Of a stretch of 64,000 bases of DNA, positions 32,201 through 38,909 are shown piece after piece. The stretch spans positions 1-64,000 of the forward strand of contig NZ_JACWNA010000019.1 of assembly GCF_015355765.1 (NCBI RefSeq), in the 5' to 3' direction. The position numbers and the translations under genes were made by a program. Each line of letters opens with the position of its first letter. Within the stretch, counting starts at the first letter, position 1. The notes under the pieces are model-generated. The model was given only the letters and a program-made list of their open reading frames with translations, was not told where the DNA came from and made no database searches. The DNA is from Actinomyces haliotis. Lineage in GTDB: Bacteria; Actinomycetota; Actinomycetes; Actinomycetales; Actinomycetaceae.

Positions 32201-32358
32201 GCAGGCGAGGACGGCGGGCGGGCCGTCATCGGTCCCGAGGAGTGAGCCCCGTCATCAGGGTGCAGCCCGGGATCGCCCTGTCTGAAACACGGCGGGCGTG
32301 TCATGACGGCGCCCGTTGAGACGCCCCACATGCTCCCGCCCCTGGAAGGAACCCCGTC

Positions 32359-32618
32359 ATGCCGACGACGCCGACCACCGCCCGCCCGCTCATCGAGCGC
32401 GGCGGGGCCACGATCAGCGAGGAGGTCGCCGCCGCCGTCCCGCTGCTGAGGAACACCTGCCCCTTTGACGTCACGCACCACCCGGGGCTGTCGATCCCCG
32501 CCGGCGAGGTGGACGGGCTGCCCGCCGGGATGATGTTCGTCGGCAAGCACTTCGACGAGGCGATGCTGTACGGGTCTCCGCCGCCTACGAGGCGACGGGG
32601 GAGGGCTTGTACCGTTGA
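32359..32618 (+). pseudogene. Amidase remnant: C-terminal piece with a frameshift
   Basis: The reading frame from 32359 opens VMPTTPTTARPL-like and continues NTCPFDVTHHPGLSIPAG and GLPAGMMFVGKHFDEAMLY, the C-terminal core of amidase-signature enzymes. Near 32571 one base appears lost: the expected continuation YRVSAAYEATGEGLYR is read in the next frame and ends at the TGA at 32616-32618. The catalytic Ser-Ser-Lys part is missing because upstream DNA belongs to the transporter region. The gene is therefore both 5'-truncated (about 400 residues gone) and frameshifted, a decayed leftover. Confidence 0.75.
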
Positions 32619-32645
32619 CGGGCGCTGCGATGCGTCGGCGTGGAC

Positions 32646-33053
32646 TCAGCGCTCGAGCGCACGCACCGCGCGGTGGGAGGAACGAAGCATCCACGGCACG
32701 CAGGCCAGGGCCCCGACCCCGACGGCGATGCCCGCCGCACCCACGGTGCTCTGGGTAGCCGAGGGGGAGAGGAGCCCGGCGGTGCAGGCGATGCCCGCGG
32801 CGAGGCAGATGATGGCCGCGAGGCCGCAACAGGCCGCCATGGCACCAGCCGCCGACGCGGCGGCTCGCTGGGCCGCGTACCACGCCTCGTCCGAGGCCAT
32901 CGACCAGCTCGTGCGCACGCCCGCCCAGTGCTGCCGCGGCAGCACGTCCGCCAGCGAGCGGCGACACACCCAGGCGACGGCGGCTGCCGCCGCGCCCAGG
33001 ACCAGTGCCATCGGGAGGGCGAGGGCGACGGCCGAGGTGGTGGTCGGGGTCAT
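32646..33053 (-). CDS. SdpI-like membrane protein
   Basis: This 135-aa protein has three to four hydrophobic segments. Between the first and second lies HWAGVRTSWSMASDEAWYAAQR, the SdpI-family signature (GIRTPWTxxSDEVW in typical members). Bacillus SdpI gives immunity to the killing factor SdpC and acts as a membrane signal receptor, but many family members have no assigned role. AAGAAT lies six bases before the ATG on this strand (33060-33065) without a ribosome-binding site, suggesting leaderless expression. No sdpC- or sdpAB-like partner is visible. Confidence 0.65.
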   Translation of the reverse strand: MTPTTTSAVALALPMALVLGAAAAAVAWVCRRSLADVLPRQHWAGVRTSWSMASDEAWYAAQRAAASAAGAMAACCGLAAIICLAAGIACTAGLLSPSATQSTVGAAGIAVGVGALACVPWMLRSSHRAVRALER

Positions 33054-33353
33054 GGACTCATTCTTGCCTGGGTAGCGGTTCTTCGGGGAGTGTGCGTCGT
33101 TCTACCGGCGCTCGCTCTCCGTTCTGGTGCAGCGACGTCCCGCCTCACACCCGGATGGGCTCATGTTGATCTCGATGATGTGCATCAACGCTATGGATTG
33201 AGCCCTCGGACTCGTGGAGCAACGCCACGTGCCCTCCCGGGACCTCGATGGACAGGACGCGGGCACTGGATGGAGCGAACCTGAATGGTGAGTGAAGTCG
33301 TGCCGCAGCGCATTAGTGTTGCGTGTATCCGATCCACTCGGAGGAGGAGCCAC
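33054..33353 (+). other. Upstream region of the MazG/helicase unit
   Basis: This 300-bp region has no supported gene and lower GC than the core genome. It carries the inverted repeat GTTGAT...ATCAAC with an inner TGATGTGCATCA palindrome (about 33166-33190). TAGTGT (33314-33319) is a promoter-like -10 hexamer, with GTGAAG 16 bp upstream. GGAGGAGGAG follows directly before the GTG start at 33354. Confidence 0.4.
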
Positions 33354-33680
33354 GTGACAGAACGACTCGAGGACACGGTCGCGCGCCTGCGCGCATTCAA
33401 TGAGGAGCGTGACTGGGACCAGTTCCATTCGCCTGAGAACCTCGCCAAGTCGATCTCCATTGAGGCTGCTGAGCTCCTCGAGTGCTTCCAGTGGGGCCCG
33501 CCGGCGGACGATGCCGGCGTTCGAGAGGAGCTCGCTGACGTCCTCTCCTACTGCCTTCAGATGGCCGACCGACTCGGCTACGACCCGCTCGAGCTCGTCC
33601 TCGACAAGCTCGAGGTCACCCGGCGGAAGTACCCAGTGGAGCTGGCCAAGGGACGGAGCACAAAGTATGACCGCCTCTGA
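33354..33680 (+). CDS. MazG-like nucleotide pyrophosphohydrolase
   Basis: This 108-aa all-alpha NTP pyrophosphatase belongs to the MazG/dCTPase (RS21-C6-like) group, which hydrolyses (d)NTPs to (d)NMP and pyrophosphate. The metal-binding pattern is visible as EAAELLECFQW followed by EELADVLSYCLQMAD (ExxE...ExxD). GTG at 33354 directly after GGAGGAGGAG is preferred over an upstream ATG at 33285. It overlaps the next gene by 14 bases, so the two are co-translated. GC content and codon choice are lower and more relaxed than in the dcw genes, pointing to horizontal acquisition. Confidence 0.85.
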   Translation: MTERLEDTVARLRAFNEERDWDQFHSPENLAKSISIEAAELLECFQWGPPADDAGVREELADVLSYCLQMADRLGYDPLELVLDKLEVTRRKYPVELAKGRSTKYDRL

Positions 33681-35529
33681 CCAGTCACGGGTCCCCGCCC
33701 CGGAACTTGCCGACGGTGGCTGGCACGTTCACGACTCGCCGTTCAACCGGGACGCGGTCACTGTGTGGGCGGCTCATGATCCGCGTCTCGGAAACTGGCC
33801 TGTTGTCTATCTCATCGATGGCACCGGGAAACGGATCTACGTCGGCGAGACGCTGCACGCGACGTCGCGCATGCGTCAGCATCTCGACAACCCCGACCGA
33901 GAGGGACTCAAGCACGTCCGGGTCGTTGTTGACCCGACATTCAACAAGTCAGCCGCTCTCGACTTCGAGTCTCGCCTCATCCAGTGGGTCCACGCGGACG
34001 GCCGTTACGTCGTCGACAATCGCAACTCGGGAATCGTCGATGCCGACTACCACGGTCGTGACTGGTACCGGCAGCGCTTCGAGGACATCGTTGCGAGTCT
34101 CGAGGCGTATGACGGTGGCGCGCTCCTTCGGAGCACCATCGACCAGCTCGAGAACTCAGACCTCTTCAAGCTGTCGCCCTTCAAGACACCCACCGATGAC
34201 CAGTACCGAGCAACTGAGCTCATCCTGAGCCAGATGTTGGACGCCATGCGCGAGGAGCGGCTGGCGACCGAGGCAACTGCAGGATCTGTGTTGGCAACCA
34301 GCCGCCCGCGGAGCCCCTTCGTCGTACGCGGCGAGCCTGGAACCGGCAAGACGATCGTTGCGATCTACCTCATCAAGCTCCTGATCGACATCAGCCGTCG
34401 AGGCGGCGATGAGGCCTACCTCGAGAACGGAGACGAGGTCACGGGGCTCGACTCGTTCTTCACCGCGGCGAACCAGAAGCTTCTCGACGGAATCCGCGTC
34501 GGATTCGTTATCCCGCAACAGTCACTTCGGGAGTCCGTCAAGCAGGTCTTCAAGAGGACTGCTGGGTTGAGCAAGACGATGGTCCTCTCGCCGATGGAGG
34601 TAGGGGCTGCGGACGAGGACTTCGATCTCCTCGTCGTCGATGAGGCGCATCGTCTCTCGCGCTATGCGGCGCAGTCGATGGGCACCGTGACGAAGCAGTT
34701 CAAGGAAGTTCACGCCAGGCTCTTCGGTGCCGACGACCGCGACCGCACACAGCTCGATTGGGTCATCGCTCGTAGCCGGTTCCAGCTCTTCCTCGTTGAC
34801 CCAGAGCAAGCGGTCCGGACATCCGACGTGCCGATCGAGGCGCTTGAGGCTCTTGTCGACGATGCCCGACGCGATCATCGCTACTCAGAGCTCAGCACAC
34901 AGATGCGAGTCGTGGGCGGTCAGGACTACATCCGCGAGATCAAGAACGCGCTTGCCGGCCGTCCGGTCTCCATGGCCTCGTTCAGCGACTACGACTTCCG
35001 TGTCTACGACGACCCTGAGGAGATGCACCAGGCCATCCTTCGCAGGGATGCCGAGCACGGCCTCGCACGGATGGTCGCCGGTTACGCGTGGCCCTGGGTC
35101 TCGAAGCAGACCAAGAGCAATCGGCAGCATCCCGTGTACGACATAGTCATTGGTGACCTCGCCATGCGCTGGAACTCCGTTGACCGCGACTGGATCGCCT
35201 CACCCAACTCCTTGAATGAAGTGGGCTCCATCCACACGGTCCAGGGCTACGACCTCAATTACGCCGGGGTCATCATCGGCCCAGATCTTCGCTATGACCC
35301 GATCGCTGGAACGACGTACTTCGACCGCTCGCAGTACGCGGACCGTGGCGCCAAGGCGAATAACCGCATGCTTGGGATTGAGTTCTCGGACGACGACCTG
35401 CGCAACTATGTCCGCAACATCTATGCCGTTCTTCTGACGAGAGGCATGCGCGGCACCTATGTGTACGCAGTGGACGAGCCGCTGCGCGATCGGCTCAAGG
35501 TCCTCTTTCCCGGGGCAGTAAGGGCGTAG
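33667..35529 (+). CDS. GIY-YIG nuclease / SF1 helicase fusion (DUF2075-like)
   Basis: This 620-aa protein has two parts. Residues about 35-140 form a GIY-YIG nuclease-like domain (VVYLIDGTGKRIYVGET, then RMRQHL and an FESRLIQW helix with the metal-binding Glu). Residues about 195-620 form a superfamily-1 helicase-like ATPase: Walker A GEPGTGKT at 222-229, DEAH at 325-328 (LLVVDEAHR), STQMRV, and the late motif SIHTVQGYDLNYAGVIIG. DUF2075 proteins of this type are found in mobile and defence regions, and the biochemical role is not established to my knowledge. The ATG lies inside the 3' end of the MazG gene. Confidence 0.8.
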   Translation: MTASDQSRVPAPELADGGWHVHDSPFNRDAVTVWAAHDPRLGNWPVVYLIDGTGKRIYVGETLHATSRMRQHLDNPDREGLKHVRVVVDPTFNKSAALDFESRLIQWVHADGRYVVDNRNSGIVDADYHGRDWYRQRFEDIVASLEAYDGGALLRSTIDQLENSDLFKLSPFKTPTDDQYRATELILSQMLDAMREERLATEATAGSVLATSRPRSPFVVRGEPGTGKTIVAIYLIKLLIDISRRGGDEAYLENGDEVTGLDSFFTAANQKLLDGIRVGFVIPQQSLRESVKQVFKRTAGLSKTMVLSPMEVGAADEDFDLLVVDEAHRLSRYAAQSMGTVTKQFKEVHARLFGADDRDRTQLDWVIARSRFQLFLVDPEQAVRTSDVPIEALEALVDDARRDHRYSELSTQMRVVGGQDYIREIKNALAGRPVSMASFSDYDFRVYDDPEEMHQAILRRDAEHGLARMVAGYAWPWVSKQTKSNRQHPVYDIVIGDLAMRWNSVDRDWIASPNSLNEVGSIHTVQGYDLNYAGVIIGPDLRYDPIAGTTYFDRSQYADRGAKANNRMLGIEFSDDDLRNYVRNIYAVLLTRGMRGTYVYAVDEPLRDRLKVLFPGAVRA

Positions 35530-35558
35530 TCGCCCGCACCCGCGGCACAATCACCCCC

Positions 35559-36533: not shown

Positions 36534-36994
36534 GGAAGCTTTGCCCACACGGCCCTGTGCCTAGTCGGCCCGGCCATCTACGCTTGGTCCATGCCCCCAA
36601 CGGCCGAGAGTCTTCTACGACGCGATGCGCTCCGTGTCCATCGCGCCGAGATTGACGCCTTGCTCGCAGCGTATGGAGCCTCGACCCCCCGGCTCTTTGG
36701 CTCGACCGCACGGGGTACGGCTAACCGAGGTTCGGACGTTGACCTACTCGTGGAACTCAACGGGGGAACGGGCAATCCGCTCATGCGCGTCGCGGGGCTG
36801 AGTGAGGAGCTCAGCGACTTGCTGGGAGTTCGAGTCGACGTCGTCGCACCTGAACTGCTCCGCGACGGGGTCTCAGACGCGGCACTGGCTGACGCGAGGC
36901 CGCTGTGAGCCGCTCCGACGAGCCAATGGCCCAGGACGTCCTCGGTTGGGGCAAGCCCGTCGGCGCCGTCGTCGGGCTCGAGGGCTGACGAAGG
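36474..36994 (+). repeat. Imperfect ~65-bp direct repeat flanking the MNT gene
   Basis: Copy 1 (36474-36539) is the 3' end of the asparaginase gene. Copy 2 (36929-36994) starts at an ATG (36926) and encodes MAQDVLGWGKPVGAVVGLEG before a stop. The copies differ at about six positions. Between them lies only the MNT-domain gene. The layout is what results when DNA integrates into a gene's 3' end while supplying a replacement end, or when a duplicated asparaginase gene has been mostly deleted. Confidence 0.85.
36591..36908 (+). CDS. MNT-domain nucleotidyltransferase
   Basis: This 105-aa minimal nucleotidyltransferase carries the active-site signature GSTARGTANRGSDVDLLVEL, in which the GS and the DxD pair bind metal and nucleotide. 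Stand-alone MNT proteins often act as antitoxins that AMPylate a HEPN toxin (the MntA-HepT type), but no HEPN gene follows: the next sequence is the asparaginase-end duplicate. TACGCT (36579-36584) lies six bases before the ATG, with no ribosome-binding site. It is either an orphan antitoxin or a relic of a larger insertion. Confidence 0.8.
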   Translation: MPPTAESLLRRDALRVHRAEIDALLAAYGASTPRLFGSTARGTANRGSDVDLLVELNGGTGNPLMRVAGLSEELSDLLGVRVDVVAPELLRDGVSDAALADARPL

Positions 36995-37015: not shown

Positions 37016-38071
37016 TCAGTCGAGGAGCCCCGCCTCCACCATGGTCCGGCCGGCCGCGATGACCGCCTCACGGCCCGGACGCTGCTCCCAGCCGAGGACC
37101 CGCGTCGCCTTCTCGTGCGAGGCCCGCCGCTCGTAGCCGAGGTCGGCTGCGTTCGCCCGCATCTCCGTGCTCGCCAGCCCGGCCGCGCGCATCACCCAGC
37201 CCGGCATCGAGCGCCGCGGAACCTTGCGCGCCGCCGGGCCCAGCGTGACGCGCAGCAGCCGCGCGATCTCCGCCATCGGCAGCGCCGGACCATCGCTGAG
37301 CAGGAAGCGCTCGCCCGCGGCCTGCAGCGACTCGAGCGCGAGGACGTGCGCCTCGGCGACGTCGCGCACGTCGACGATCGGCATCCGGATGTCCGGCGTC
37401 GCCGGCACCCGGCCCGTCAGCAGCATCCGCACGACACCGTTCGACCCCGTCACGCTCGGCCCCATGGCCGGGCCCATGACCGCCGTCGGCAGCATCGTGA
37501 CGAGCTCGAGCCCCGCGCCCTCACCGCGCACGAAGCCCCAGGCCGCCTGCTCCGCGAGCGTCTTCGAACGGCCGTAGGCGTCCGTGCCCGGGCCGTCGAG
37601 AACCGTCCAGTCGTCCTCGGTGAAGACGTGCTCGTCGTGCGGGTGGCCTCACGCGACCGCGTGGAAGGCGCTCGTGAGCACCACCCGCCGCACGCCGGCG
37701 TCGTCGGCCGCGCGCAGCACACGCAGCGCGCCCTCCCGGGCGGGCCGGATGACCGCGTCCTCGTCCTCGACGTGCCCCGGCGCGACCGGAGACGCGACGT
37801 GGAAAACGCCGGTGACGCCCGCCATCGCCCCGGACCAGCCGGCGTCGGAGAGCGGGTCCGCGGCGACGACCTCGAAGGTGCCCTGGTCCGTGAGGCCGGC
37901 CTCACCGAGCCAGCCGCGCATCGCCTCCTCGCGCGCGAGGGAGCGGACGGTGGTCCGGACCCGGTAGCCCGCCCGCGCGAGCCGAAGGACGCAGTGGCCG
38001 GCGATGAACCCCGAACCGCCCGTGACGAGGACGGCGCCGCGCTGGGCGTTGGTTGCGGAGGAGGCCGTCAT
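37016..38071 (-). pseudogene. NAD(P)-dependent epimerase/dehydratase gene with in-frame TGA
   Basis: Read from ATG at 38071, the frame encodes an extended short-chain dehydrogenase (dihydroflavonol-reductase-like): GAVLVTGGSGFIAGH is the NAD(P) loop, followed by FHVASPVAPGH and VVLTSAFHAVA. A TGA at 37651-37649 then interrupts it. The same frame continues GHPHDEHVFTEDDW, a DAYGRSK motif with the catalytic Tyr and Lys, and MLPTAVMGPA, to the end at 37016. Total length would be 351 codons, normal for the family. A single nonsense base change (the expected residue here is usually Tyr) most likely inactivated it; sequencing error is the alternative. Confidence 0.8.
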
Positions 38072-38308
38072 GGCGCGCATCCTCGCACCTCGGTTCCCGG
38101 ACGACTGCACAGCTCGGCACCGACGTCCCGACCGAGCCCACCGTCAAGGCCACCGAGCCGAGCCTCGACGACGCAGCGAACGTCACGGCCGACTCCTTCA
38201 GCTACGGCGGACCCGGCACCGGGAGCTGCCAGAAGAAGTGAGTGACGACGGCGGTCCCGTGCACGGCGAGGCGCCGCCCTTCCGATTGCGTTGACCTTCG
38301 GCACTTCG
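38072..38308 (+). other. Possible 3' gene remnant upstream of the toxin-antitoxin pair
   Basis: Between the divergent epimerase gene and the toxin-antitoxin operator one plus-strand frame ends in ADSFSYGGPGTGSCQKK (stop near 38241). Its Thr/Asp/Pro-rich sequence resembles a secreted or lipoprotein tail rather than random coding. No start or domain is recognisable, so at most it is the end of a lost gene. Confidence 0.25.
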
Positions 38309-38334: not shown

Positions 38335-38538
38335 ATGGCCATGACACTCCGCCTCGACCCCGAGCAGGACCAGCTTCTTCAGGAGCTCGCTGACGCACAG
38401 GGCGTCTCCAAGCAGGAGGCTGCCAGCCGCGCGATCGTCGAGACCGCGCAGCGCCACCTTCACTCCGCTCGCGTCTCGGAGCTCTCCGCACAGGCCCGCG
38501 AGAGGTACGCCGACGTCCTGCGGCGGCTGGGCGAGTGA
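38335..38538 (+). CDS. Ribbon-helix-helix antitoxin (CopG/Arc type)
   Basis: This 67-aa protein has a beta strand (MTLRLDPEQDQ) followed by two helices with a turn (LLQELADAQGVSKQEAASRAIV), the ribbon-helix-helix DNA-binding fold. The remaining C-terminal tail (about residues 40-67) would wrap the toxin. It is the first gene of a two-gene module and its stop overlaps the toxin GTG start. The first ATG (38335) is used because TACCAT sits exactly six bases upstream; a second ATG two codons later is possible. Confidence 0.85.
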   Translation: MAMTLRLDPEQDQLLQELADAQGVSKQEAASRAIVETAQRHLHSARVSELSAQARERYADVLRRLGE

Positions 38539-38909
38539 ACGTCACCTACCTCGACCTGGAGGACCTCCTGGCCCTGGCCGAGGACCTCGGCGTGCTCCAG
38601 GTGAGGGACGTCGGGCTCCTCGCCTCGGCCTCACAGCGCCCAGCCACCACCCTGTACGGTGAGGCCGCGTATCCGGCGCTCGCGGACAAGGCGGCTGTCG
38701 TCCTCGAGTCGATCGTTCGCAACCACCCACTCGTCGACGGCAACAAGAGGCTCGGCTGGCTCGCGACCGTCGTGTTCCTGGGGCTCAACGGGGTTGATCT
38801 CGACATCGCTGATGACGACGCCTACGACCTGGTCATCTCTGTCGCCGAGGGACGGCGGTCGTGGCAGGAGACCGCGCAGTGGCTCCGAGAGCGTGGCGTC
38901 ACCGGCTGA
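38535..38909 (+). CDS. Doc-type (Fic fold) toxin
   Basis: This 124-aa death-on-curing family protein has the short Fic motif HPLVDGNKR at 64-72 (HxFxxGNKR-type). P1 Doc phosphorylates elongation factor Tu and stops translation, and the motif residues needed (His64, Asp68, Asn70, Lys71, Arg72) are present. The N-terminal LDLEDLLALAEDLG and LYGEAAYP blocks also match Doc. It starts GTG in overlap with the antitoxin stop. Pairing of Doc with an RHH antitoxin rather than Phd is less common but known. Confidence 0.87.
   Translation: MNVTYLDLEDLLALAEDLGVLQVRDVGLLASASQRPATTLYGEAAYPALADKAAVVLESIVRNHPLVDGNKRLGWLATVVFLGLNGVDLDIADDDAYDLVISVAEGRRSWQETAQWLRERGVTG

Follow-up and report, generated by a model that had tools for sequence, protein, structure and literature searches.

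A candidate mobile defence module pairing a MazG-like pyrophosphohydrolase with a GIY-YIG/Schlafen group 3 helicase in Actinomyces haliotis

Nhi and AbiO are single-protein defence systems. Hachiman is reported to be activated by DNA damage (PMC12278908), AbpAB to be an example of nuclease-helicase defence that can respond to DNA damage (PMC10732053), Schlafen-linked systems to be able to act in anti-phage defence (PMC12839542), and MazG to be one of the predicted, unvalidated defence domains of DefensePredictor (PMC13092281). The locus considered here lies in a 64,000-nucleotide stretch of Actinomyces haliotis DNA (contig NZ_JACWNA010000019.1, positions 1 to 64,000; hereafter the window), part of a high-GC genome of 2.68 Mb. 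It consists of a MazG-like gene overlapping a gene for a protein that joins a GIY-YIG segment to a Schlafen group 3 helicase. On balance, we lean towards regarding the pair as a horizontally moving, defence-type two-gene module, the defence role being suggested by its genomic context.

The first gene (33354..33680, forward strand) begins with GTG and encodes a MazG-like nucleotide pyrophosphohydrolase of the DCTPP1 type, 108 amino acids (aa) long. Its ribosome-binding site, GGAGGAGGAG, occupies 33340..33349 on the same strand, its last base lying 4 bases before the start codon. The protein matches the Pfam MazG-like family PF12643 at 65.1 bits (cut-off 27) and is the sole match to that family in the genome; among solved structures it finds RS21-C6/dCTP pyrophosphatase 1 chains (E=4e-19). 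In 20 aligned MazG partners, W21, E37, E40, W47, E59, D62 and K85 are invariant, and the metal-site region (residues 37-62; 33462..33539, forward strand) holds the invariant acidic residues. By profile and acidic metal site, the window MazG is a member of the DCTPP1-type MazG-like family, and hydrolysis is predicted.

The second gene (33667..35529, forward strand; PF09848 and PF01541) overlaps the first by 14 bases (33667..33680) and encodes a protein of 620 aa with a superfamily 1 (SF1) helicase. Its helicase domain (residues 218-603; 34318..35475) matches SLFN-g3_helicase PF09848, which we take to be the former DUF2075, at 242.5 bits (cut-off 24) over profile positions 4-354 of 354. Motif and alignment place Walker A at residues 222-229 (34330..34353) and the DEAH box at residues 325-328 (34639..34650), both on the forward strand like the domains around them. 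In 67 aligned GIY-type sequences, G222, G225, G227, K228, D325, E326, H328, Q526 and R592 are invariant in the helicase part, and the third letter of the DEAH box varies. The near full-length profile match and the Walker A and B motifs identify the protein, at the level of sequence, as a Schlafen group 3 helicase. The GIY-YIG segment (residues 45-121; 33799..34029, forward strand) is delimited by conserved residues, with Pfam covering residues 48-110; in the same 67 sequences P45, Y48, Y58, G60, R68 and H72 are invariant and E101 is kept in at least 90%. Read against the residues generally known to be catalytic in this superfamily, the protein carries the GIY-YIG signature, namely the GIY and YIG tyrosines, a downstream Arg/His and a Glu. 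Profile matches of the segment to I-TevI and Endonuclease II chains are weak (E=0.006 and 0.013). The initial annotation had described these two overlapping reading frames together with the Walker A and DEAH positions, and all of these are confirmed; the key GIY-YIG and MazG residues it was concerned with are kept on alignment.

The pairing extends far beyond this locus. It was counted over 122 loci (L001-L123 minus the duplicate L014, the window locus included), a locus being typed as GIY where the alignment profile starts in its GIY-YIG part, which denotes homology to that profile, not a Pfam call. By profile search, 67 of the 76 GIY-type loci have MazG next to the helicase, and they are spread over Actinomycetota, Bacillota, Bacteroidota and Pseudomonadota. 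It lies upstream on the same strand in 45, downstream on the same strand in 18 and upstream on the opposite strand in 4; this changing order means that more than one inherited operon keeps the pair together. By comparison, the 1.60 Mb of fetched DNA contain 3 MazG hits that are not adjacent, and chance pairing is rejected on these counts. MazG and helicase distances correlate as well (r=0.49 over 64 pairs; best of 2000 shuffles, 0.18). Among loci without the GIY-YIG domain, MazG is adjacent in 19 of 46 (two of them, L083 and L089, truncated or broken).

The pairing was also counted from the MazG side. The 27 genomes searched were picked for holding a GIY-type locus, and hits above 100 bits were counted: 26 of the 30 lie beside the fetched helicase, 1 beside a second SLFN-g3 helicase, and the remaining 3 have no SLFN-g3 helicase within about 7 kb. 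Counted by genome, helicase-adjacent MazG occurs in 26 of 27, and the 27th has its MazG beside the second SLFN-g3 helicase. That second helicase with MazG is L133, from the same genome as L070, whose own helicase has no adjacent MazG. A less selected sample of the phylum gave 37 MazG hits, 30 of which were retrieved with flanks of 1.5 kb; such a helicase adjoins 16 of these 30, the window included.

The site of the pair changes its content between related genomes. The slot 32624..35558 (no strand assigned) is bounded by flanks that match the same-genus genome G038 up to 32623 and again from 35559, and a type I restriction locus is found in the 13.6 kb that separate them in G038 (REase_I 1110 bits, Specificity_I 391 bits), along with a transposase and hsdM, both recognised by eye only. 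Another member of the genus, G181, has about 2.9 kb between the flanks that match; the open reading frames (ORFs) read by eye there, from a list filtered by codon composition, include no restriction gene and do not include the pair. Because the flanks match while the content between them differs, the site looks like a variable slot where defence genes replace one another, judging from these two comparison genomes. In the G038 locus, a 318-aa gene matching the PADLOC candidate PDC-S14 (L128:1311-2267, 338.6 bits) overlaps hsdR.

The nuclease-helicase itself is patchily distributed: at E<=1e-20 and with its own genome counted, it was found in 13 of 200 sampled family genomes and 30 of 396 sampled phylum genomes, and none of the 20 other same-genus genomes in the family sample matches it. 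A core housekeeping pair, the ordinary role against which the initial annotation had weighed its proposal, is unsupported given this distribution. Relatives came from a scan of named genomes (at least 105 confirmed, 80 kept) and span Actinomycetota, Bacillota, Bacteroidota, Pseudomonadota, Saccharibacteria, Mycoplasmatota and further groups; one record, the non-GIY member L116, is archaeal. A maximum-likelihood tree of 67 rows, built quickly and with support from the SH-like approximate likelihood-ratio test (SH-aLRT) only, places members of the window's own family in at least 3 separate clades and nests Alcanivorax and Marinobacter among Bacteroidota.

Neighbouring genes add to the context. 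All seven plasmid loci opened (from the ten best, three lacking annotation under the match being left out) have, as judged by annotation or Pfam and within 7 kb, restriction or methylase genes, type III CRISPR, a CBASS-like set or Mcr-like genes; the count was made without a control set, and such genes may be common on plasmids in general. The Mcr link is, we presume, what DUF2357 near these loci represents. On chromosomes, PADLOC models (E<=1e-10) were run on ORFs picked by a simple script, without a gene caller, around 14 loci and in 14 control regions from the same genomes, out of 20 prepared sets. They returned 64 families among 138 ORFs near the pairs vs 10 among 133 control ORFs, a contrast that is only qualitative because of redundant models and because generic models occur in both lists; the controls include one DndA/SspA-type hit and the candidates PDC-M37B, PDC-M72A and DolB. 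Individual neighbours include Thoeris ThsA and ThsB (L061), a dCTPase defence gene in L063 (378 bits), whose start lies about 190 bases past the helicase gene, and an ORF matching the Orf5, HEC-06 and SspE models (L064:5405-8131). GmrSD_N domains occur in two near ORFs, from a Pfam scan of near ORFs that has no control counterpart.

A second kind of module recurs in these surroundings. On a mobilizable L. plantarum plasmid (L188:2255-5552), a NUDIX gene overlaps a gene for a PLD, superfamily 2 (SF2) helicase and DUF3427 protein, immediately ahead of the MazG and GIY-YIG helicase genes. DUF3427-type helicases also stand in the fetched flanks of L058, L066, L068, L069, L091, L096, L103 and L187, and L100 shows a weak match. 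A nuclease-helicase gene accompanied by one for a nucleoside triphosphate (NTP) hydrolase may be a design that recurs.

Relatives of the window protein vary at both ends. Before the helicase, 34 of 46 non-GIY loci carry an RxD...ExK motif, which is typical of PD-(D/E)XK nucleases; Pfam names no nuclease family at this place in the four non-GIY relatives scanned (L010, L029, L093 and L101). Two tandem SLFN-g3 helicases, one with the RxD...ExK motif and one GIY-type, lie at L052:8396-12360, with no MazG nearby. At the C-terminus, a Peptidase_S24 domain scores above 170 bits in 20 of 123 loci (16 GIY-type and 4 other), 17 of which served to build the profile and match by construction. Independently of this profile, Pfam detects it at 37.3 bits in L063 and 31.6 bits in L113; in L078 it scores 18.4 bits, below the cut-off. 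Ala-Ala-Gly, the serine of G-x-S-M and the following lysine are kept in 17 of 17 aligned sequences, the Ala-Ala-Gly presumably standing at the position that holds the LexA cleavage site. The S24 relatives carry the LexA/UmuD-type autoprotease signature, an Ala-Gly site with Ser and Lys, and are predicted to cleave themselves; the kept residues suggest that RecA-type signals of DNA damage switch these relatives. The window protein has no S24 domain, its sequence stopping after the helicase, and no match to the domain occurs anywhere in the window. The S24 domain of relatives, the exchange of the N-terminal domain and the Schlafen group 3 assignment all go beyond the initial annotation.

The preference for a mobile, defence-type module draws together the type I restriction swap at the site, the plasmid and chromosomal neighbours, the patchiness, the tree, the conserved residues and the pairing. 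Several findings weigh against it. The Pfam GIY-YIG profile PF01541 reaches only 20.0 bits on the window protein, under its cut-off of 22.6; among homologues it scores 24.9 bits in L063, above the cut-off, and 20.9 in L078, below it, and L119, typed as GIY by the alignment profile, has no Pfam GIY-YIG match. No MazG lies near 9 of 76 GIY-type and 27 of 46 other loci. On plasmids, MazG stands beside the helicase in 2 of 7 copies and is absent nearby in 5 of 7, so the partner is not obligatory. Conversely, 14 of the 30 MazG loci in the less selected sample have no such helicase within 1.5 kb, 7 of them belonging to a single family whose genomes measure 6-10 Mb. Many of the 64 PADLOC families near chromosomal pairs are redundant models of one protein, which leaves a modest contrast. 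PADLOC holds no model that covers the nuclease-helicase and none that matches this MazG, viral contigs gave no relative among 600 pattern-matching stretches, and the S24 domain would suit repair as well as defence. The initial annotation had proposed a candidate defence system in which detection of foreign DNA by a nuclease-helicase would be coupled to dNTP depletion; none of the outcomes it named as refuting was seen. A defence context is supported by the restriction swap, the plasmid neighbours and some of the chromosomal ones; the coupling is weakened by the many relatives without MazG.

The main rival is DNA-damage repair or genome maintenance, in which the helicase-nuclease would process damaged or stalled DNA of the host and MazG would clean damaged dCTP, with S24 domains tying the module to SOS-type control and mobility reflecting a stress-tolerance benefit. 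The LexA-like domain in 20 of 123 loci and its DNA-damage logic fit this account, as do a partner that is a nucleotide-pool hydrolase and the nearby NUDIX and DUF3427 helicase modules; human Schlafen helicases act at stalled forks. Set against it are the patchy distribution with repeated horizontal transfer, the one site where a type I restriction locus replaces the pair, and the restriction, CRISPR or CBASS-like neighbours on plasmids, and we consider repair rather unlikely.

If the nuclease-helicase were the sole defence effector, MazG might be an independent passenger or accessory, for example one that protects the host from its action. The 9 GIY-type, 27 other and 5 plasmid loci without a nearby MazG would be expected then, and Nhi and AbiO, which PADLOC matches show to be distantly related, work as single proteins. 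Adjacency in 67 of 76 loci despite changes of order, the overlapping genes and the co-divergence speak for a tie between the two proteins; we consider this account less probable still than repair.

The remaining rival concerns mobile elements. Plasmid records hold a relative in 40 of 72,556 cases, 15 of the 40 being predicted mobilizable. Phage records match in 4 of 50,697, the best being MT836409. This record (L187, MT836409.1), named Bacteriophage sp., holds the pair at 48% identity, a DUF3427-type helicase and, by eye, a glycogen-debranching-like ORF, and so is probably a bacterial fragment. A phage origin of the pair is rejected, since the 600 pattern-matching stretches of viral contigs hold no relative and the best of the 4 phage records is probably bacterial. 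A function that serves the mobile elements themselves, selfish or stabilising, by which an integrated element would exclude competing plasmids or phages and not defend the host, would suit the plasmid records and the low GC of the pair but is very improbable, most fetched loci being chromosomal or on unplaced contigs and no integrase or transfer gene being recognised beside the pair among the window ORFs scanned.

Composition sets the pair apart from its surroundings, as the initial annotation had noted. GC is 62.2% for the pair vs 72.2% for the window, and every 2.2-kb segment among those of lowest GC in the 64 kb overlaps with it. GC at third codon positions (GC3) is 0.80 and 0.78 in the two genes vs 0.97 in the flanking major facilitator superfamily gene and 0.94 in the flanking asparaginase gene, in keeping with the A/T-ending codons it had pointed out. 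The decayed genes and toxin-antitoxin module that it placed around the pair are also found. A gene remnant at 32232-32623 lacks about 1.25 kb that a same-genus genome has, epimerase/dehydratase-like ORF pieces at 37016-38110 on the reverse strand form an apparently decayed gene (the domain scan covered 37649-38110), and overlapping ribbon-helix-helix-like and Fic/Doc genes at 38335-38909 are apparently a toxin-antitoxin pair. Between these lies a nucleotidyltransferase-domain gene (36591-36908, 105 aa) that matches the PADLOC candidate PDC-S09 at 91.5 bits.

If the defence reading of the pair is right, a mechanism can be proposed. The helicase would engage abnormal or replicating DNA, such as single-stranded DNA or the stalled or damaged forks that phage replication makes, and its ATP-driven movement would license the GIY-YIG domain to cut. 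MazG would hydrolyse dCTP or modified dCTP, lowering or cleaning the deoxynucleoside triphosphate pool, and this removal would block resynthesis or clear the modified nucleotides that mask invader DNA. In S24-bearing relatives, a signal resembling RecA on single-stranded DNA would probably trigger the self-cleavage that switches the protein; the window protein, lacking S24, would have a switch of its own that does not act through this domain. More tentatively, and as a possibility we hold doubtful, there may be an as yet undescribed class of immune modules, spread over several phyla, in which a nuclease that can be swapped (GIY-YIG or PD-(D/E)XK-like) is joined to a Schlafen group 3 helicase and coupled to a dCTP-specific MazG; some lineages would add self-cleavage of the LexA kind. 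Under DNA stress from an invader, the protein would be cut free and DNA degradation unleashed, and dCTP or its modified form would be removed at once, leaving the invader unable either to rebuild or to mask its genome. Such a class would parallel the human Schlafen helicases at stalled forks.

If the defence reading of the pair were confirmed, the consequences would be several. A common, mobile type of nuclease-helicase defence would be recognised that the PADLOC models used do not name, and MazG enzymes, so far only predicted defence domains, would gain a concrete immune role. The S24 relatives would link RecA/SOS-type signals to an anti-phage effector, and the helicase would connect a bacterial immune system to the domain family of human SLFN5 and SLFN11.

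Among known systems, Nhi and AbiO share a related core with the helicase of the pair, their models matching relatives with E down to 8e-15 (Nhi) and 1.5e-16 (AbiO). On the window protein they give weak, partial matches (19.5 and 23.2 bits), mainly in the helicase and none over the GIY-YIG segment, and membership in either system is rejected for want of a full-length match; the MazG partner and the S24 domain of some relatives further separate the pair from them. Hachiman and Gabija are alike in outline, with a nuclease controlled by a DNA-sensing helicase, but here nuclease and helicase share one protein and the second gene encodes a nucleotide pyrophosphohydrolase. Neither GajA/GajB nor HamA/HamB has a PADLOC match at E<=0.01, and membership in Gabija or Hachiman is likewise rejected. 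Among PADLOC candidates, the GIY-YIG protein PDC-S14 matches the window GIY-YIG segment at 24.2 bits, confined to residues 54-121 although its models have 280-320 positions. PDC-S41 gives partial matches to four non-GIY relatives (56.7-64.3 bits) and 22.9 bits on the window protein, over residues 501-600 only. The NUDIX module resembles the pair in that an NTP-hydrolase gene overlaps a nuclease-helicase gene, and differs in its PLD nuclease, SF2 helicase and NUDIX hydrolase.

The window MazG shares with DCTPP1/RS21-C6 the ERDW-QFH and FQW motifs and the acidic metal site; unlike DCTPP1, it is bacterial and encoded with a nuclease-helicase, and its substrate is predicted by likeness. The DefensePredictor main text gives no hit for helicase or GIY-YIG (PMC13092281). 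Prokaryotic Schlafen-type RNases have the Schlafen name in common with the present helicase family but are RNase-domain proteins (PMC12839542). The view of the initial annotation that no described system has exactly this pair still holds within the literature searched, which contains no description of it, and with no covering PADLOC model; an earlier mention is possible, some likely sources lying outside the search. By these comparisons, the pair would belong with nuclease-helicase defence, and its unusual parts are the MazG coupling and the S24 arm.

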